This document shows positions 15,255 to 49,762 of a stretch of DNA of 49,762 nucleotides, piece after piece. Under the pieces are notes generated by a model, which was not told the origin of the DNA, searched no databases, and was given only the letters and a program-made list of their open reading frames with translations. Source of the DNA: Verrucomicrobiales bacterium (GTDB lineage Bacteria; Verrucomicrobiota; Verrucomicrobiia; Limisphaerales; UBA9464). Each line of letters opens with the position of its first letter. The first letter of the stretch is position 1. Location: contig JAIXZE010000446.1 of NCBI GenBank assembly GCA_027489875.1, forward strand, positions 1 to 49,762, written 5' to 3'. Position numbers and translations under genes: made by a program.

Positions 15255-15430
15255 GACTCCAGCCCCTTTCCATGCCTGCGAGGTTAGCTGACGGGCTCGG
15301 GCCGAAAGGTGCCCTGGCCGCCGGTTACCCGGCGTCGTACGCCCCGTCCGGCGGCTTTGCGTTGCGGCAATACCACCGGAATCTGGTTCCCCCGCGCCCG
15401 TCAACTCACTGCTGCCGGGCTTCGGCGAAG
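15255..15430 (-). promoter_or_regulatory. c-di-AMP riboswitch (ydaO/yuaA type) in the kup leader
   Basis: On the minus strand the leader contains CCCGAGCCCGTCAGCTAACC followed by TCGCAGGC and GGAAAGGGGC. This is the strongly conserved 3' half of ydaO riboswitches. Some 85 bases upstream is the matching 5' half, GCAGCAGTGAGTTGACGGG followed by CGCGGGGGAACCAG. The element is on the same strand as kup, with about 185 bases of expression platform before the ATG. Known ydaO switches bind two c-di-AMP molecules and usually turn K+ importer genes off. Boundaries are estimates to within about 10 bases. Confidence 0.92.
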
Positions 15431-15490
15431 GCATCGGTATCGCAAAAGCCCCGGTCTTCTGTCAAATGCCCGATTCCCGCGTGCCCCCGC

Positions 15491-15722
15491 TCACAGACGG
15501 GGAGGCGACGTCCCCGTCGCCATCCTCAAAGCCTCTCCCAAAAGGCGATGAAGACATCGCCACCCCACTCACGGACGGGGAGGCGACGTCCACGTCGCCG
15601 TCCTCAAAGCCCTCCCTCAAGGCGATGAAGACATCGCCACCCCACTCACGGACGGGGAGGCGACGTCCACGTCGCCGTCCTCAAAGCCCTTCCCCAAGGC
15701 GATGAACACATCACCCCCCCGG
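15491..15722. repeat. Three tandem 77-78-base units of the GTCGCC palindrome family
   Basis: Units start at 15491, 15569 and 15646. Each reads TCACRGACGGGGAGGCGACG, then TCC, then a CCTCAAAGCC spacer, then GGCGATGAASACATCRCCAC in degenerate form. Each unit can fold as a hairpin. The array sits upstream of the kup riboswitch and of the flavoprotein gene on the other strand, so it separates two divergent promoters. Confidence 0.9.
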
Positions 15723-17050: not shown

Positions 17051-17608
17051 ATGTACGGGATGGTAAACAAGGCCATCGAAGATCTGGTCTGCACCAGCTT
17101 CGGCCCAGACAAGTGGGAGCAGATCAAGGCGAAGGCGGGCGTGGAGGAGGAGATGTTCCTCAGCCACGAGGGATACCCCGATTCCATGACCTACGGCCTC
17201 GTCGGTGCGGCCAGTGAAGTCCTGGGCCTGCCCGCGGAGAAAATCCTCCACGCCTTCGGCCGTCATTGGATCCTCAAGACCGCCCGCGAAGGCTACGGGG
17301 ACCTCCTCGCCGCCAGTGGGCGTACCCTGCCGGATTTCCTTGCCGGCCTCCCCAACTTCCATTCCCGCATCAAGCTGATGTTCCCCAACCTGAAGCCCCC
17401 CCGCTTCAGCATCACCGAACGGACCGAATCCAGCCTCCTGCTCCATTACCAGACGCACCGCGACGGTCTGGCTCCCTTCGTCGTCGGCGTCCTCGATGGC
17501 CTCGGTGAGATGTACAAGACCCCCGTCACCGTCGAACATGTCGCCCACCGGACCCCCGAGTCCCAATCCGACACGTTCCGCGTCGCCTGGTCCGCCCCCA
17601 CTCCCTGA
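17051..17608 (+). CDS. Stand-alone H-NOX heme nitric oxide sensor
   Basis: A soluble protein of 185 residues, one complete H-NOX (HNOB) domain starting MYGMVNKAIEDLV. The proximal heme ligand is H104 in NFHSRIKLMFPNLKPPRF, and the PP at 116-117 corresponds to the conserved heme-distorting Pro. The heme-propionate motif YxSxR appears as Y133-Q-T135-H-R137, with Thr in place of Ser. The position equivalent to the distal Tyr of O2-binding H-NOX proteins is Pro142, so a NO-selective sensor is predicted, as in soluble guanylate cyclase. Its stop is 24 bases before the start of a hybrid kinase carrying the matching HNOBA domain. I infer that the two proteins form one sensor. Confidence 0.95.
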   Translation: MYGMVNKAIEDLVCTSFGPDKWEQIKAKAGVEEEMFLSHEGYPDSMTYGLVGAASEVLGLPAEKILHAFGRHWILKTAREGYGDLLAASGRTLPDFLAGLPNFHSRIKLMFPNLKPPRFSITERTESSLLLHYQTHRDGLAPFVVGVLDGLGEMYKTPVTVEHVAHRTPESQSDTFRVAWSAPTP

Positions 17609-17632
17609 CCTCCCCCTCCGCAGCGGCGCGCC

Positions 17633-20600
17633 ATGCAACCCCCAGCCCAGACCTCCCTCCTCCCGGGCAAGGTGGGTCTGACGCCGGAACAGTTCGCGGT
17701 TGCCTTCCCGTTCCACTTTTCCTGCGACGCCACCGGCAGGATCACGCAGGCCGGTGCCTCCCTCCTGCGCCTCTGTCCGGATCTGGTCCGCTGCCCCAAC
17801 CTCGACGAGGTCCTGATCCTCCGCGAACCCGAGATCCCGCCACCGCATTCGATCGAGTCCTTCCGAGAGTTCAACCAACTCCTCTTCCTCATCCAGGTCG
17901 CCGGTACCGAGGTCCTCCTGCGCGGCCAGATCATTCCCATCGAGGACGGCGGCTTCGTCTTCCTCGGTTCGCCCTGGCTGACCGACATCGGCACCCTCCG
18001 CAAGCTCGGTCTCCTTCTCGACGACTTCGCCATCCACGATCCCGCCCTCGACCTGCTCCAGAGCGTCCAGGCCCAGAAGGCGACCGTCGCGGACCTCCAG
18101 AAACTCGCCGAACGCCTGCGCCACCAACGCACCGAACTCACCGTCGCCAACGCCCGCCTCCAGGAACAGAACGCCGCCCTCCGCCTCGCCGAGGAACAGC
18201 TCCGCGCCCAGGCCGCCGTCGCCCACAAGCTCGCCCTCGTCGCCGACCGCACCGATCAAGCCGTCGTCATCAGCGATCGCCGCGGTCTCATCGAATGGGT
18301 CAACGCCGGCTTCACCCGCCTCACCGGCTACACCCTGGCCGAAGCCGCCGGCCGCAAGCCCGGCGACCTCCTCCAGGGTCCCGAAACCGATCCCCGCTCG
18401 GTCGCCACCATCCGCGACCGCCTCGGCAACGGCGAACCCGTCGATCTCGAGATCCTCAATTACCACAAGAACGGCCAGAAGTACTGGCTCCACCTCGAAA
18501 TCCAACCGATCCGCGACGCCGAGGGCCAGATCTGCAACTTCATGGCGCTGGAACGCGACATCACCGAACGCGTCCGCAGCGACCACCGCCGCGCCCTCCA
18601 GTACGAGGTCTCCCGCACCCTCGCCGAGGCCATCTCCATCCCCACCGGCATCGCACGCTGCCTCCAGGCCATCGCCACCTCCCTCGGTTGGCCCGCCGCG
18701 ATCTTCTGGGCCCCCACCGAGGACGGCACCCACCTGCGCTCCGAATCCTTCTGGATCAGTCCCGACGGCCAATACGCCGAGTTCCTCCGGGCCGCCGAGG
18801 AATTCCGGGCCCGCCCCGGGGAAGGCCTCCCCGGACGCGTCTGGACCGAGGGCCGCGCCCTGTGGATCTCCAACTTCACCGCCCTCCATGACAGTCCGCG
18901 CCGCGCCTCAGCAGCCCAGTGCGGCCTCCAGGGAGCCTTCGCCTTCCCCTGCCGCGCCGAAGGCGAGTTCCTCGGCATCATCGAACTGTTCTCCCGCCAA
19001 TCCGACGATCCCGACCAGGATCTCCTCCAGCTCTTCATCTCGCTCGGCAACCAGGTCGGCCAGTTCATCCAGCGCAAGAAGACCGAGGCCGAGATCGAAC
19101 GTCAGCGCGACTTCGCCCTCCAGGTCATGAACCTGATGGGTCAGGGCCTCACCGTCAGCGACGAACAGGGCGTGTTCTCCTTCGCCAACGAGGCGTTCGC
19201 CCGCTTCGTCGGCCTCCCCCAGGCCGACGTCATCGGCCGCAGCCCCGCCGAATTCGTCTTCCCCGAGGACGTCGCCATCCTGCAGAAGGCGCGCGAAGCC
19301 CGCCAACGCGAAGAGTCCACCTCGTACGAGGTCCGCTTCCGCCGCAGCGACGGCACTGCCACCTACGCCCTCATCACCGGCGTTCCCCAACGCCGCGATG
19401 GCCGAGTCGTCGGTTCCATCGCCACCGTCACGGACCTCACCGAACGCCGGAAGGCCGAACTCGAACTCCAAAGCGCCAAGGAACAGGCCGAGGCCGCCAA
19501 CCGCGCCAAATCCGAGTTCCTCGCCACCATGAGCCACGAGATCCGGACTCCCATGAACGGGATCATCGGCATGTCGTCGCTCCTCCTCGACTCCAACCTC
19601 ACCGCCCACCAGAAGGAGATGGTCGAGGCCGTCCGCTCCTCCGGCGAAGCCCTCATGGGCATCATCGAGGACGTCCTCGACTTCTCGAAGATCGAGGCTT
19701 CCAAGATCGAGATCTTCGCCGAGGAATTCGACCTCGACTCCGTCGTCGAGGGGGTCATGGACCTCTTCACGCAGAAGTCCATCGAGAAGGGCATCGAACT
19801 CGTCGTCCACGTCCATCCCGACGTTCCCTCGCGCGTCCGCGCCGACGCCGGCCGTCTCCGTCAGATCCTGCTCAACCTCGTCGGCAACGCCATCAAGTTC
19901 ACCCAGCACGGCCAGGTCATCCTCGACATTCAACGCGCCCCCCAGCGTGGAGGCCAATCCCAGCTCCGCTTCGCCGTCCGCGATTCCGGCATCGGCATGT
20001 CGCAGGAACAGATCTCCCGCCTGTTCATGCCCTTCACCCAGGCCGATGCCTCCACCACCCGCCGCTTCGGCGGCACCGGTCTCGGCCTCGCCATCTGCAA
20101 GCGCCTCGTCGAACTCATGGGCGGCAGCATCCACGTCGAGTCCACCCCGGCCCAAGGCTCCGAGTTCCACTTCACCATCCCGGTCTCCGAACCCAACGGA
20201 GCCGTACGTTCCCAGTTCCCTCCCATCCACGTCGTCGTCGCCGAGGATCACCCCGATACCCGCGCCGCCCTTCGCGACCACCTTTCCTCCCTCGGCTCCG
20301 ATCCCATCCTTTGCGGCACCGAGGATTCCCTCCTCGAACAACTCCGCCTGCCCCGCCTTCCCAACCTCCTCATCATCGACCGCAACCTCTTCGGCCCAGC
20401 GACCCTCGAAGCCCTCCGCAAGATCAGCCTCAGCCCCGAACGCCGCACCCCAAGGCTCGTCCTCATCGGCACCGTCACCGATTCCGTCCGCCAGACCGGC
20501 AGCAGCGCCGGCGCCGACGCCTTCCTCACCAAACCCCTCAAGCGCGCCGCCCTCGCTTCGATCATCGATCGTACCGTGTCCCGCTCCGCCCCCTCCCCCA

Positions 20601-21460
20601 CCCCGTCCTCCACCGGTGCCCCCCAGCGCCGGACCGAGGTCTCATCGCTCCGCATCCTCGTCGCCGAGGACAACGACATCAACCGGCGCCTCACCACCCT
20701 CATGCTCACGAAGCTGGGTTACGTCGCCGATCTCGTCGTCAACGGCCGCGAAGCCGTCGAAGCCTGCGAACGCCTCCCGTACGATGTCATCCTGATGGAT
20801 TGTCACATGCCGGAACTCGACGGCTACGACGCCACCCGGACCATCCGCAAGGCCGAGGCCGCCAACCCAAACCGTCACCGCGTCCGGATCATCGCCCTCA
20901 CCGCCGCCGCCATGACCGGCGAACGCGAGCGCTGCCTCGCGGTCGGCATGGACGATTACCTCTCCAAGCCCGTCAAACCCGATCTCCTCCACGCCGCCCT
21001 CGAACGCGCCGAAGCCGCCATCGCCCCCAAACCTTCCCCGGCAACCCACGCCGACACGCCCCCAGCCGCGGCTCCCGCCGATCCAGCCCTCATCGAGGAA
21101 ATCACCACCGCCCGCCAGACCGCAAAGGCCCTCGCCGATGACCTCGGCACCGAAGGCGTTGTCGAACTGCTCGAAGCCTTCGTCACTGACACGCCCCTCC
21201 GCCTGACCGAACTCGTCCGCCTCGCCGCCGGCACCGACTTCATCACGCTCCGCCGCTCCGCCCACTCGCTGAAGGGCAGCTTCGCGCTCTTCGGATTCTT
21301 CCAACTCGAGGCCGCTGCCCTCGAAATCGAGATCGCCGCCTCGGAATCCCGGCCTGAGGGCCAGCTGGCGGCTTCCGCCGCCCTCGAGTCCCGCTTCCTT
21401 CAGATCTTTCCCCAGGTCCGTCAGCTCGTTGAAGAATTCCGGTCATCCCCCCCCCAATGA
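17633..21460 (+). CDS. HNOBA-PAS-GAF-PAS hybrid histidine kinase with two receivers and HPt
   Basis: A soluble protein of 1275 residues with no membrane segment. Domains in order: HNOBA (about 22-143; FHFSCDATGRITQAG, LRGQIIPIEDGGFVFLGSP); coiled coil (145-200); PAS (205-315); GAF (about 325-480); PAS (495-605); HisKA with H635 in MSHEIRTPMNG; HATPase with N748 and N752, DSGIGMS and GGTGLGLAI; receiver 1 (863-975, D916, K967); receiver 2 (1006-1120, E1012/D1013, D1056, K1112); HPt (about 1150-1270, H1211 in AHSLKGSFA). All phosphorelay residues are present. HNOBA is the H-NOX-associated PAS-like domain of soluble guanylate cyclases; here it sits on a kinase while the heme domain is encoded by the preceding gene. 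A glycosyltransferase starts 1 base after the stop. No separate output regulator is nearby, so the final phosphate acceptor is unknown. Confidence 0.95.
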   Translation: MQPPAQTSLLPGKVGLTPEQFAVAFPFHFSCDATGRITQAGASLLRLCPDLVRCPNLDEVLILREPEIPPPHSIESFREFNQLLFLIQVAGTEVLLRGQIIPIEDGGFVFLGSPWLTDIGTLRKLGLLLDDFAIHDPALDLLQSVQAQKATVADLQKLAERLRHQRTELTVANARLQEQNAALRLAEEQLRAQAAVAHKLALVADRTDQAVVISDRRGLIEWVNAGFTRLTGYTLAEAAGRKPGDLLQGPETDPRSVATIRDRLGNGEPVDLEILNYHKNGQKYWLHLEIQPIRDAEGQICNFMALERDITERVRSDHRRALQYEVSRTLAEAISIPTGIARCLQAIATSLGWPAAIFWAPTEDGTHLRSESFWISPDGQYAEFLRAAEEFRARPGEGLPGRVWTEGRALWISNFTALHDSPRRASAAQCGLQGAFAFPCRAEGEFLGIIELFSRQSDDPDQDLLQLFISLGNQVGQFIQRKKTEAEIERQRDFALQVMNLMGQGLTVSDEQGVFSFANEAFARFVGLPQADVIGRSPAEFVFPEDVAILQKAREARQREESTSYEVRFRRSDGTATYALITGVPQRRDGRVVGSIATVTDLTERRKAELELQSAKEQAEAANRAKSEFLATMSHEIRTPMNGIIGMSSLLLDSNLTAHQKEMVEAVRSSGEALMGIIEDVLDFSKIEASKIEIFAEEFDLDSVVEGVMDLFTQKSIEKGIELVVHVHPDVPSRVRADAGRLRQILLNLVGNAIKFTQHGQVILDIQRAPQRGGQSQLRFAVRDSGIGMSQEQISRLFMPFTQADASTTRRFGGTGLGLAICKRLVELMGGSIHVESTPAQGSEFHFTIPVSEPNGAVRSQFPPIHVVVAEDHPDTRAALRDHLSSLGSDPILCGTEDSLLEQLRLPRLPNLLIIDRNLFGPATLEALRKISLSPERRTPRLVLIGTVTDSVRQTGSSAGADAFLTKPLKRAALASIIDRTVSRSAPSPTPSSTGAPQRRTEVSSLRILVAEDNDINRRLTTLMLTKLGYVADLVVNGREAVEACERLPYDVILMDCHMPELDGYDATRTIRKAEAANPNRHRVRIIALTAAAMTGERERCLAVGMDDYLSKPVKPDLLHAALERAEAAIAPKPSPATHADTPPAAAPADPALIEEITTARQTAKALADDLGTEGVVELLEAFVTDTPLRLTELVRLAAGTDFITLRRSAHSLKGSFALFGFFQLEAAALEIEIAASESRPEGQLAASAALESRFLQIFPQVRQLVEEFRSSPPQ

Positions 21461-21461
21461 C

Positions 21462-22655
21462 ATGAGGCTCCTCTACGTCCACGAACGCTTCGGTGCCCTC
21501 GCCGGAGCGGAGGCCAACGCCCACATCACCGCCACCGAACTCGGCAAACGCGGCCATCACATGGCCATCCTGCACGGGCCCTCGACCGGCAAGAACGAAG
21601 CCGGCTGGAATGCCACCTTCCCCGACCGGTTCCCCATCAACCCCGACGCCGGAGCCGAATCCGCACGCAAGGCCATCGCCGCCTTCAGTCCCGATGTCGT
21701 CTATGTCCACAAGATGGCCGACCTCGACGTCATCCAGGCCCTCGTCGATTCCGGGAAGCCCCTCGTCCGCATGGTCCACGACCACGACATCTATTGCATG
21801 CGGAGCTACAAGTATAACTACTTCACCCGCGAGATCTGCACCCGCGCCGCCTCCGCCTATTGCATCTTCCCCTGCCTCGCCTCCGTCGTCCGCAACCCAG
21901 GCCCCGGATTCCCCCTCAAGTGGGTTTCCTACACCGACAAGAAGCGCGAGATCGCCCTCAACCAGCAGTTCCGCCGCATGGTCGTCGTCACCACCTACAT
22001 GCGCGATGAACTCCTCAAGAACGGATTCGACCCCGCCCGCATCCGCATCCACGCCCCCGTTCCGCGCATGGGCGATCCCAACCTCCGCTCCACCTTCTCC
22101 GACCGGAACCTCATCCTCTACGCCGGCCAGATCATCCGCGGCAAGGGCGTCGACGTCCTCCTCGAATCCCTCGCCAAGGTAAAGTCCCCCTTCGAGTGCA
22201 TCATCCTCGGCGACGGCAACCACAAGGCCTTCTGCGAGGATCTGTCCCGCAAGCTCGGTCTCCAGGACCGCGTCCACTTCAAGGGCTTCATTCCCCAGGA
22301 GGAATTGAAGGCCTACTACCGCGAGTGCTCCGTCGTCGCCCTCTCCTCCCTCTGGCCCGAACCCATCGCCACCATCGGCCTCGAGGTCATGCGCTACGCC
22401 CTCCCCGTCGTCGCCTTCGACGCCGGCGGCATCAAGGACTGGCTCATCGACGGCCACAACGGCTACCTCGTCCCCTGGATGGATCGCGACGCCTTCGCCC
22501 GTCGCACCGACGAACTCCTCAACAACAAGCCCCTCGCCCGCAAACTCGGCGAGAACGGCCTCCAACTCGTCAGCGAACGCTACGACTTCGACGGCTACAT
22601 CAAGGACCTGGAATCGATGTTCGCGGAAGTGGCGGGGGCCCCCGCCAAGGCCTGA
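21462..22655 (+). CDS. GT4-type glycosyltransferase coupled to the H-NOX kinase
   Basis: A GT-B fold enzyme of 397 residues. I start it at MRLLYVHERFGALAGAEA, the usual N-terminal Rossmann opening, rather than 11 codons earlier inside the kinase end. The C-terminal nucleotide-sugar domain shows LILYAGQIIRGKGVDVLLESL, VHFKGFIPQEELKAYYREC and the EPIATIGLEVMRYALPVVAFDAGG block with the conserved Glu pair. DHDIYCMRSYKYN and two Cys-containing segments in the N-terminal half are typical of GT4 proteins with an insertion. There is no signal or membrane segment. Only 1 base separates it from the kinase stop, so co-translation is likely. An exopolysaccharide or cell-surface glycan target is plausible; donor and acceptor are unknown. 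Confidence 0.9.
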   Translation: MRLLYVHERFGALAGAEANAHITATELGKRGHHMAILHGPSTGKNEAGWNATFPDRFPINPDAGAESARKAIAAFSPDVVYVHKMADLDVIQALVDSGKPLVRMVHDHDIYCMRSYKYNYFTREICTRAASAYCIFPCLASVVRNPGPGFPLKWVSYTDKKREIALNQQFRRMVVVTTYMRDELLKNGFDPARIRIHAPVPRMGDPNLRSTFSDRNLILYAGQIIRGKGVDVLLESLAKVKSPFECIILGDGNHKAFCEDLSRKLGLQDRVHFKGFIPQEELKAYYRECSVVALSSLWPEPIATIGLEVMRYALPVVAFDAGGIKDWLIDGHNGYLVPWMDRDAFARRTDELLNNKPLARKLGENGLQLVSERYDFDGYIKDLESMFAEVAGAPAKA

Positions 22656-22670
22656 CACGCTCGCCACACG

Positions 22671-22740
22671 GAACGGGGTGGTGACGTCCTCGTCGCCGTT
22701 CCAAATCCGTTTCCATGGCGATGAGGACATCGCCGCCCCG
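22671..22740. repeat. GTCGCC palindrome-family element
   Basis: GAACGGGGTGGTGACGTCC with CTCGTCGCC pairs with GGCGATGAGGACATCGCCGCCCC. Placed 16 bases after the glycosyltransferase stop, it is the only hairpin available to end the H-NOX transcript. Confidence 0.8.
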
Positions 22741-49649: not shown

Positions 49650-49762
49650 GTAGAGTAGAGAGGAGAGCACGGATTGAGAGGTCCAAGGACCAATGACCGT
49701 GTCTCCCCTCTCCCTCGTCAAACCGGACATGAAGATTTCCCTCATCCGGCTTTCGTCGGGAC
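49650..49762 (-). mobile_element. 3' end of a group II intron: domains V and VI (partial, cut by the right edge)
   Basis: Read on the minus strand, 49753 to 49720 is a typical domain V: AGCCGGATGAGGGAAATCTT, then CATGTCCGGTT. AGCCGGA pairs with TCCGGTT, the AGC catalytic triad is at the base and a GAAA-type loop closes the helix. Domain VI follows: GAGAGGGGAGACACGG pairs with CCGTGCTCTCCTCTC and ends in CTCTACTC, a usual intron 3' end for bacterial introns, about 49650-49655. Domains I-IV and the reverse transcriptase/maturase would lie beyond the right edge. The exact splice site is an estimate. Confidence 0.82.

Follow-up and report, generated by a model that had tools for sequence, protein, structure and literature searches.

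A putative nitric oxide-responsive H-NOX/HNOBA kinase module beside a GT4 glycosyltransferase gene in a Verrucomicrobiales bacterium

Results

We analyzed a 49,762-nucleotide stretch of the genome of a Verrucomicrobiales bacterium (contig JAIXZE010000446.1 of GenBank assembly GCA_027489875.1), hereafter the window, which contains genes for an H-NOX protein, a hybrid histidine kinase with an N-terminal HNOBA domain and a glycosyltransferase of family 4 (GT4). The three form one tight head-to-tail run on the + strand (17051-22655), with 24 bases between the H-NOX and kinase genes and 1 base between the kinase stop and the ATG of the GT4 gene at 21462. On balance, we favor the reading that they constitute a sensor module responsive to nitric oxide (NO), whose phosphorelay would control polysaccharide output.

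The first gene (17051-17608, + strand) encodes a predicted haem NO-sensor protein (HNOB) of 185 amino acids that matches Pfam PF07700 over the whole profile (positions 1-163; E=2.2e-51, 174 bits against a cut-off of 25.5). Its best match in the PDB is Alr2278 of Nostoc (E=2e-55). The haem set is complete, with the proximal H104, the motif Y133-x-T135-x-R137 (YQTHR, 133-137) and P142 at the distal site. This site was placed by fixed spacing, 9 residues past the motif Tyr, where O2-binding H-NOX proteins have a Tyr; none of 36 aligned H-NOX proteins has a Tyr in the column of P142. The window protein has the residues of the NO-selective type, namely a proximal His, YxS/TxR and no distal Tyr. The whole genome has only one H-NOX and one HNOBA, which adjoin each other. 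The H-NOX and its partner kinase probably sense nitric oxide.

It is improbable that the window H-NOX instead responds to redox state, CO or another cue unrelated to NO, or is a haem-poor regulatory subunit. Some H-NOX proteins are indeed redox sensors (Vc H-NOX, PMC7108781), and the proximal His is a Cys in the closest relative, G006. The window protein, however, has the full haem set and lacks the distal Tyr, and its nearest match, Alr2278, is an H-NOX whose solved structures include NO- and CO-bound forms (PMC2576301). The H-NOX of G006, which belongs to the same genus (L050:4925-5479), is 64% identical to that of the window and, besides the Cys (NFCTR), carries Ser in place of the motif Tyr. 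It is possible that in G006 haem ligation was lost or changed together with the loss of the output gene, GT4.

The second gene (17633-21460, + strand) encodes a hybrid kinase of 1275 amino acids with the domain order HNOBA-coiled coil-PAS-GAF-PAS-HisKA-HATPase-REC-REC-Hpt. Its N-terminus matches PF07701 (E=6e-16, 59 bits against a cut-off of 23.4), and the HNOBA domain (17678-18169, + strand) matches the HNOBA/PAS domain of a kinase from Nostoc (2p04) with E=6e-12 in phmmer. In the AlphaFold (AF2) model of this domain (pLDDT 86.6), a PAS fold is followed by a long signaling helix (model residues 137-200), and the closest folds found by Foldseek were soluble guanylate cyclase and 2p04, the latter with a TM score of 0.88 on the target length. 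The HisKA and HATPase domains are both present with the phospho-acceptor His, and all phospho-sites are in place at H635 (codon at 19535), D916 (20378), D1056 (20798) and H1211 (21263).

The third gene (21462-22655, + strand) encodes a GT4 glycosyltransferase of 397 amino acids that matches PF00534 (E=4e-36) as well as PF13439. It has the GT-B fold, with the EX7E motif at E300/E308, and the nearest folds are HepE, BshA and WlaC. In alignments it retains all invariant residues and is 76-81% identical to orthologues from intact polysaccharide clusters. Four cysteines (C112, C126, C134 and C138) are invariant in 23 GT4 proteins, down to 45% identity, and lie inside an insertion of low model confidence; they could bind a metal or an Fe-S cluster. 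Direct regulation of GT4 through a receiver fusion was also considered and dropped, as the gene maps contain no such fusion. An earlier note, made from the letters of this DNA, had described an NO-type H-NOX, a kinase with an N-terminal HNOBA domain and a His-Asp-Asp-His domain set, and a GT4 directly behind it; profile searches, alignment and structural comparison bear out this description.

The pairing of H-NOX with HNOBA was surveyed in 58 relatives and in a phylum-wide draw of 388 genomes. Only HNOBA matches that included the PAS part were counted, and open reading frames in loci from metagenome-assembled genomes were called automatically. Matches confined to about positions 160-216 of PF07701 (for example in G024, G030 and G068) are coiled coils without the PAS part and were rejected as false positives. 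Such coiled-coil-only matches exceed the HNOBA cut-off in G068:C25 and G383:C11, where they are likely to lead to false HNOBA annotations. HNOBA kinases are common in the family of the window, in about half of its genomes, and rare in the phylum draw (7 of 388, including the window's own). An H-NOX gene lies immediately upstream on the same strand in 21 of the 26 HNOBA loci, and the two genes mostly share a 4-base stop/start overlap. The earlier note had asked whether H-NOX always precedes HNOBA; it usually does, with five exceptions (G003:C379, G011:C72, G026:C72, G028:C18 and G145). In the complete genome G145 (L213), which lacks H-NOX altogether, the HNOBA kinase neighbors a FIST gene and another kinase.

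Behind the kinase, a GT4 gene was found in 6 of about 17 HNOBA loci with readable downstream DNA (the window's own genome, G007, G011, G012, G045 and G248); a further kinase gene separates the two in G011 and G045. In G018 and G019, the contig with the kinase stops before the gene is complete, and a second contig of each genome opens partway through a kinase gene and continues into GT4; there may thus be more than six kinase-GT4 loci. The kinase of G003, from the same genus, is directly followed by a STAS-STAS-SpoIIE-receiver set without GT4.

The reciprocal survey started from GT4. A contig scan with the window GT4 as query gave 77 loci, a collection biased to GT4s that resemble the query; the count from the HNOBA side does not share this bias. 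Upstream genes were counted for 35 orthologues from other Verrucomicrobiota genomes that are at least 70% identical to the query and have 4.4 kb or more of DNA on their 5' side. On the same strand upstream, HNOBA was present in 23, H-NOX in 19 and FIST in 5, and any of these in 27; among more distant GT4s (50-69% identity) the figure was 0 of 14. Because H-NOX occurs only about once in several genomes, chance linkage to GT4 is negligible, with the qualification that the GT4 loci share descent and so are not independent observations.

Downstream of GT4, 29 loci with at least 9 kb of DNA were examined with Pfam. A sugar transferase was present in 28, a hexapeptide gene in 26, STAS in 25, a receiver in 25, an AP-superfamily enzyme in 24 and SpoIIE in 23. 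The SpoIIE gene encodes an RsbW-like HATPase/GAF/SpoIIE phosphatase and the receiver is a lone receiver; after the AP-superfamily enzyme come GT4, a Wzx flippase and others. Upstream of H-NOX, Wza-type export genes occur in L101, L102, L108 and L112. In most of these Verrucomicrobiota genomes, a conserved exopolysaccharide cluster begins with GT4. This context suggests that nitric oxide may control surface polysaccharide in these bacteria, and it considerably strengthens the earlier inference that the window system bears on glycan production.

In some genomes FIST genes take the place of H-NOX. A FIST gene precedes the kinase upstream of GT4 in L091 and L140, both FIST and H-NOX occur upstream of GT4 in L068/L158 and in L151, and in L105 FIST accompanies the C-terminal portion of an HNOBA-type sensor. 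Against the NosP model, the FIST proteins gave E values of 1e-19 and 2e-17 (71 and 63 bits against an equivalog cut-off of 450), and they may be called NosP-like by resemblance only. In L068 (4193-6538, - strand), an HNOBA-PAS-GAF-PAS protein that lacks a kinase core precedes FIST and, as a gene of its own, an HK-REC-Hpt kinase; sensor and kinase are thus split once more. A FIST gene of the window's own genome (contig C122) was discarded as a part of the system, having none of the searched kinases or other system genes nearby.

H-NOX, HNOBA and GT4 show correlated pairwise distances (r 0.54-0.78; 0 of 2000 permutations), as descent of one block would give. We nevertheless regard it as very improbable that the gene order is without regulatory meaning and merely a product of common ancestry or of the transfer of a single block. 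The order is kept between families although identity falls to about 55% for H-NOX and about 40% for HNOBA, the start/stop overlaps are retained, and NosP-like FIST genes with kinases take the same place in some genomes.

The conserved cluster does not continue in the window. A palindrome resembling repetitive extragenic palindromic (REP) elements lies directly 3' of GT4 (22680-22734, unstranded), at the point from which the polysaccharide cluster extends in relatives, and downstream of it is a DsbH-like thioredoxin gene. Its half-site, GGCGATGAGGACATCGCC, occurs 21 times in the window against 0.15 expected, in pairs about 37 bases apart, and the sites, including those at 15504-15715 and 22680-22734, flank the FAD-H-NOX-kinase-GT4 block. 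The palindrome was also found on contigs C4 and C162. We infer that the copy after GT4 marks a breakpoint of the cluster.

Pieces of the cluster lie elsewhere in the genome. Contig C68 (L192) carries a STAS-STAS-SpoIIE-receiver set that is closest to the set after the HNOBA kinase of G003 (72% identity for STAS, 54% for SpoIIE and 82% for the receiver); its lone receiver lies at L192:7647-8036. Contig C4 (L205) carries the AP-superfamily enzyme (77%), an FkbM methyltransferase, Wzx, a glycosyltransferase and nucleotidyltransferase-like genes. Sugar-transferase matches on C162 (52%) and C144 (47%) were rejected, as they are not inside a copy of the conserved cluster. The window represents a dispersed version of the cluster, with parts over contigs C50, C68 and C4.

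Several observations weigh against control of polysaccharide output by the module. No polysaccharide genes follow GT4 in the window, and a search of this genome, whose assembly is 89% complete, did not recover the hexapeptide gene. Counted from the HNOBA side, GT4 is next in just the 6 of about 17 loci given above, and the closest relative, G006, has H-NOX (with its proximal Cys) and the kinase without GT4. From the GT4 side, 8 of the 35 loci lack any NO-sensor gene. Linkage moreover falls short of proving regulation, and these loci share ancestry.

These points bear on a further explanation, that the NO phosphorelay is real but has other targets here, for example the STAS/SpoIIE set on C68, and that GT4 is a passenger of a broken-up polysaccharide cluster. 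The missing cluster with its pieces on other contigs, the REP-like element abutting GT4, the several relatives that have an H-NOX-HNOBA kinase pair without GT4, and the G003 kinase that adjoins its STAS-STAS-SpoIIE-receiver set are all consistent with it. GT4, on the other hand, keeps its invariant residues and its high identity to the orthologues of intact clusters, and it sits 1 base behind the kinase. We consider the passenger explanation unlikely, if the most serious of the alternatives, and retain the NO-responsive module with polysaccharide output as the preferred interpretation.

Two further elements of the window lie outside the three-gene run. A cyclic di-AMP riboswitch (RF00379, 58.9 bits) is located at 15258-15437 (- strand) at the 5' end of a gene for a Kup-type K+ transporter, and a group II intron match (RF00029, 48.3 bits) occupies 49650-49754 (- strand) at the window end.

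Discussion

The HNOB and HNOBA domains were reportedly named by Iyer in 2003. As in soluble guanylate cyclase, the window system combines H-NOX with HNOBA/PAS and a signaling helix; the cyclase holds these in one polypeptide together with its catalytic domain, whereas here they are on two proteins with a kinase output. The earlier note had set this split against the single polypeptide of the cyclases; the split itself is not new. A free H-NOX of Nostoc "from a histidine kinase operon" and the HNOBA domain (H-NOXA) of an N. punctiforme kinase were solved in 2007-2008 (PMC2576301, PMC2828450; PDB 2p04). Like the window pair, Alr2278 is a free H-NOX encoded with an N-terminal-HNOBA kinase (2p04/2p08), and the two Nostoc proteins are the best sequence and fold matches; this comparison covers H-NOX and the HNOBA part of the kinase. 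Unlike in Verrucomicrobiota, no polysaccharide cluster is reported for the Nostoc pair in the accessible literature. The wiring to a polysaccharide cluster is the part that is new to us. Our search found no paper on H-NOX in Verrucomicrobia, with most subscription papers lying outside it.

The closest parallel in output is found in Vibrio fischeri, where the HnoX-controlled kinase HahK feeds SypF, and SypG and SypE control the syp polysaccharide. SypE, a regulator of the serine kinase/phosphatase type, has the STAS protein SypA as its target, and H-NOX restrains the syp pathway in an NO-dependent manner (PMC12369376, PMC4517449, PMC8738867). In both systems a separate H-NOX stands beside a kinase, and the output is a polysaccharide cluster that includes a STAS protein together with a regulator of the serine kinase/phosphatase type. 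They differ in that the V. fischeri sensor genes form a separate operon that reaches syp via SypF or LuxU, whereas in the Verrucomicrobiota relatives the sensor genes sit inside the cluster, and in that the serine kinase/phosphatase and the receiver are separate genes in the latter. We know of no HNOBA domain in HahK. The Syp-like combination of STAS, RsbW/SpoIIE and a receiver beside polysaccharide genes is present in most of the related clusters and absent at the window, the set of this genome being on C68. The earlier remark that there is no adjacent response regulator thus holds for the window but not for the many related clusters with a lone receiver and STAS/SpoIIE. A FIST protein beside a hybrid kinase at the same place, as in some relatives, also recalls NosP-NahK, except that these proteins score far under the NosP equivalog cut-off and no FIST gene is in the window.

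We propose that the free H-NOX would bind NO at its His104-haem and dock on the kinase at its HNOBA (PAS) end, much as the corresponding domains do within soluble guanylate cyclase. The coiled coil would carry the signal to the HisKA core, from which REC and Hpt would relay it to a lone receiver. Together with the RsbW-like kinase/SpoIIE phosphatase and STAS, this receiver may form a partner switch like that of SypE and SypA, possibly setting polysaccharide synthesis, and GT4, presumably co-transcribed with the kinase, would be an enzyme of that synthesis. NO-bound H-NOX would set kinase activity; since V. fischeri H-NOX restrains its pathway in an NO-dependent manner, the expected sign by analogy is that NO restrains the kinase.

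H-NOX work has centered on Proteobacteria and cyclic di-GMP. More tentatively, Verrucomicrobiota may have evolved a self-contained circuit leading from NO to polysaccharide. One conserved exopolysaccharide cluster, with its own receiver and STAS/SpoIIE partner switch, would be served by interchangeable NO sensors placed before it (an H-NOX/HNOBA-kinase pair, a NosP-like FIST protein plus kinase, or the two together), and NO would act via serine dephosphorylation rather than cyclic di-GMP; we regard this broader proposal as possible but somewhat doubtful.

Split sensors of H-NOX and HNOBA that resemble soluble guanylate cyclase are present in Verrucomicrobiota, and their probable output is an exopolysaccharide encoded alongside in many genomes. 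Natural variants are at hand in the Cys-for-His H-NOX and in the kinases paired with FIST instead. The system offers a testable circuit from NO to the matrix and, in two separate bacterial proteins, a model for the contact that H-NOX and HNOBA make within guanylate cyclase.

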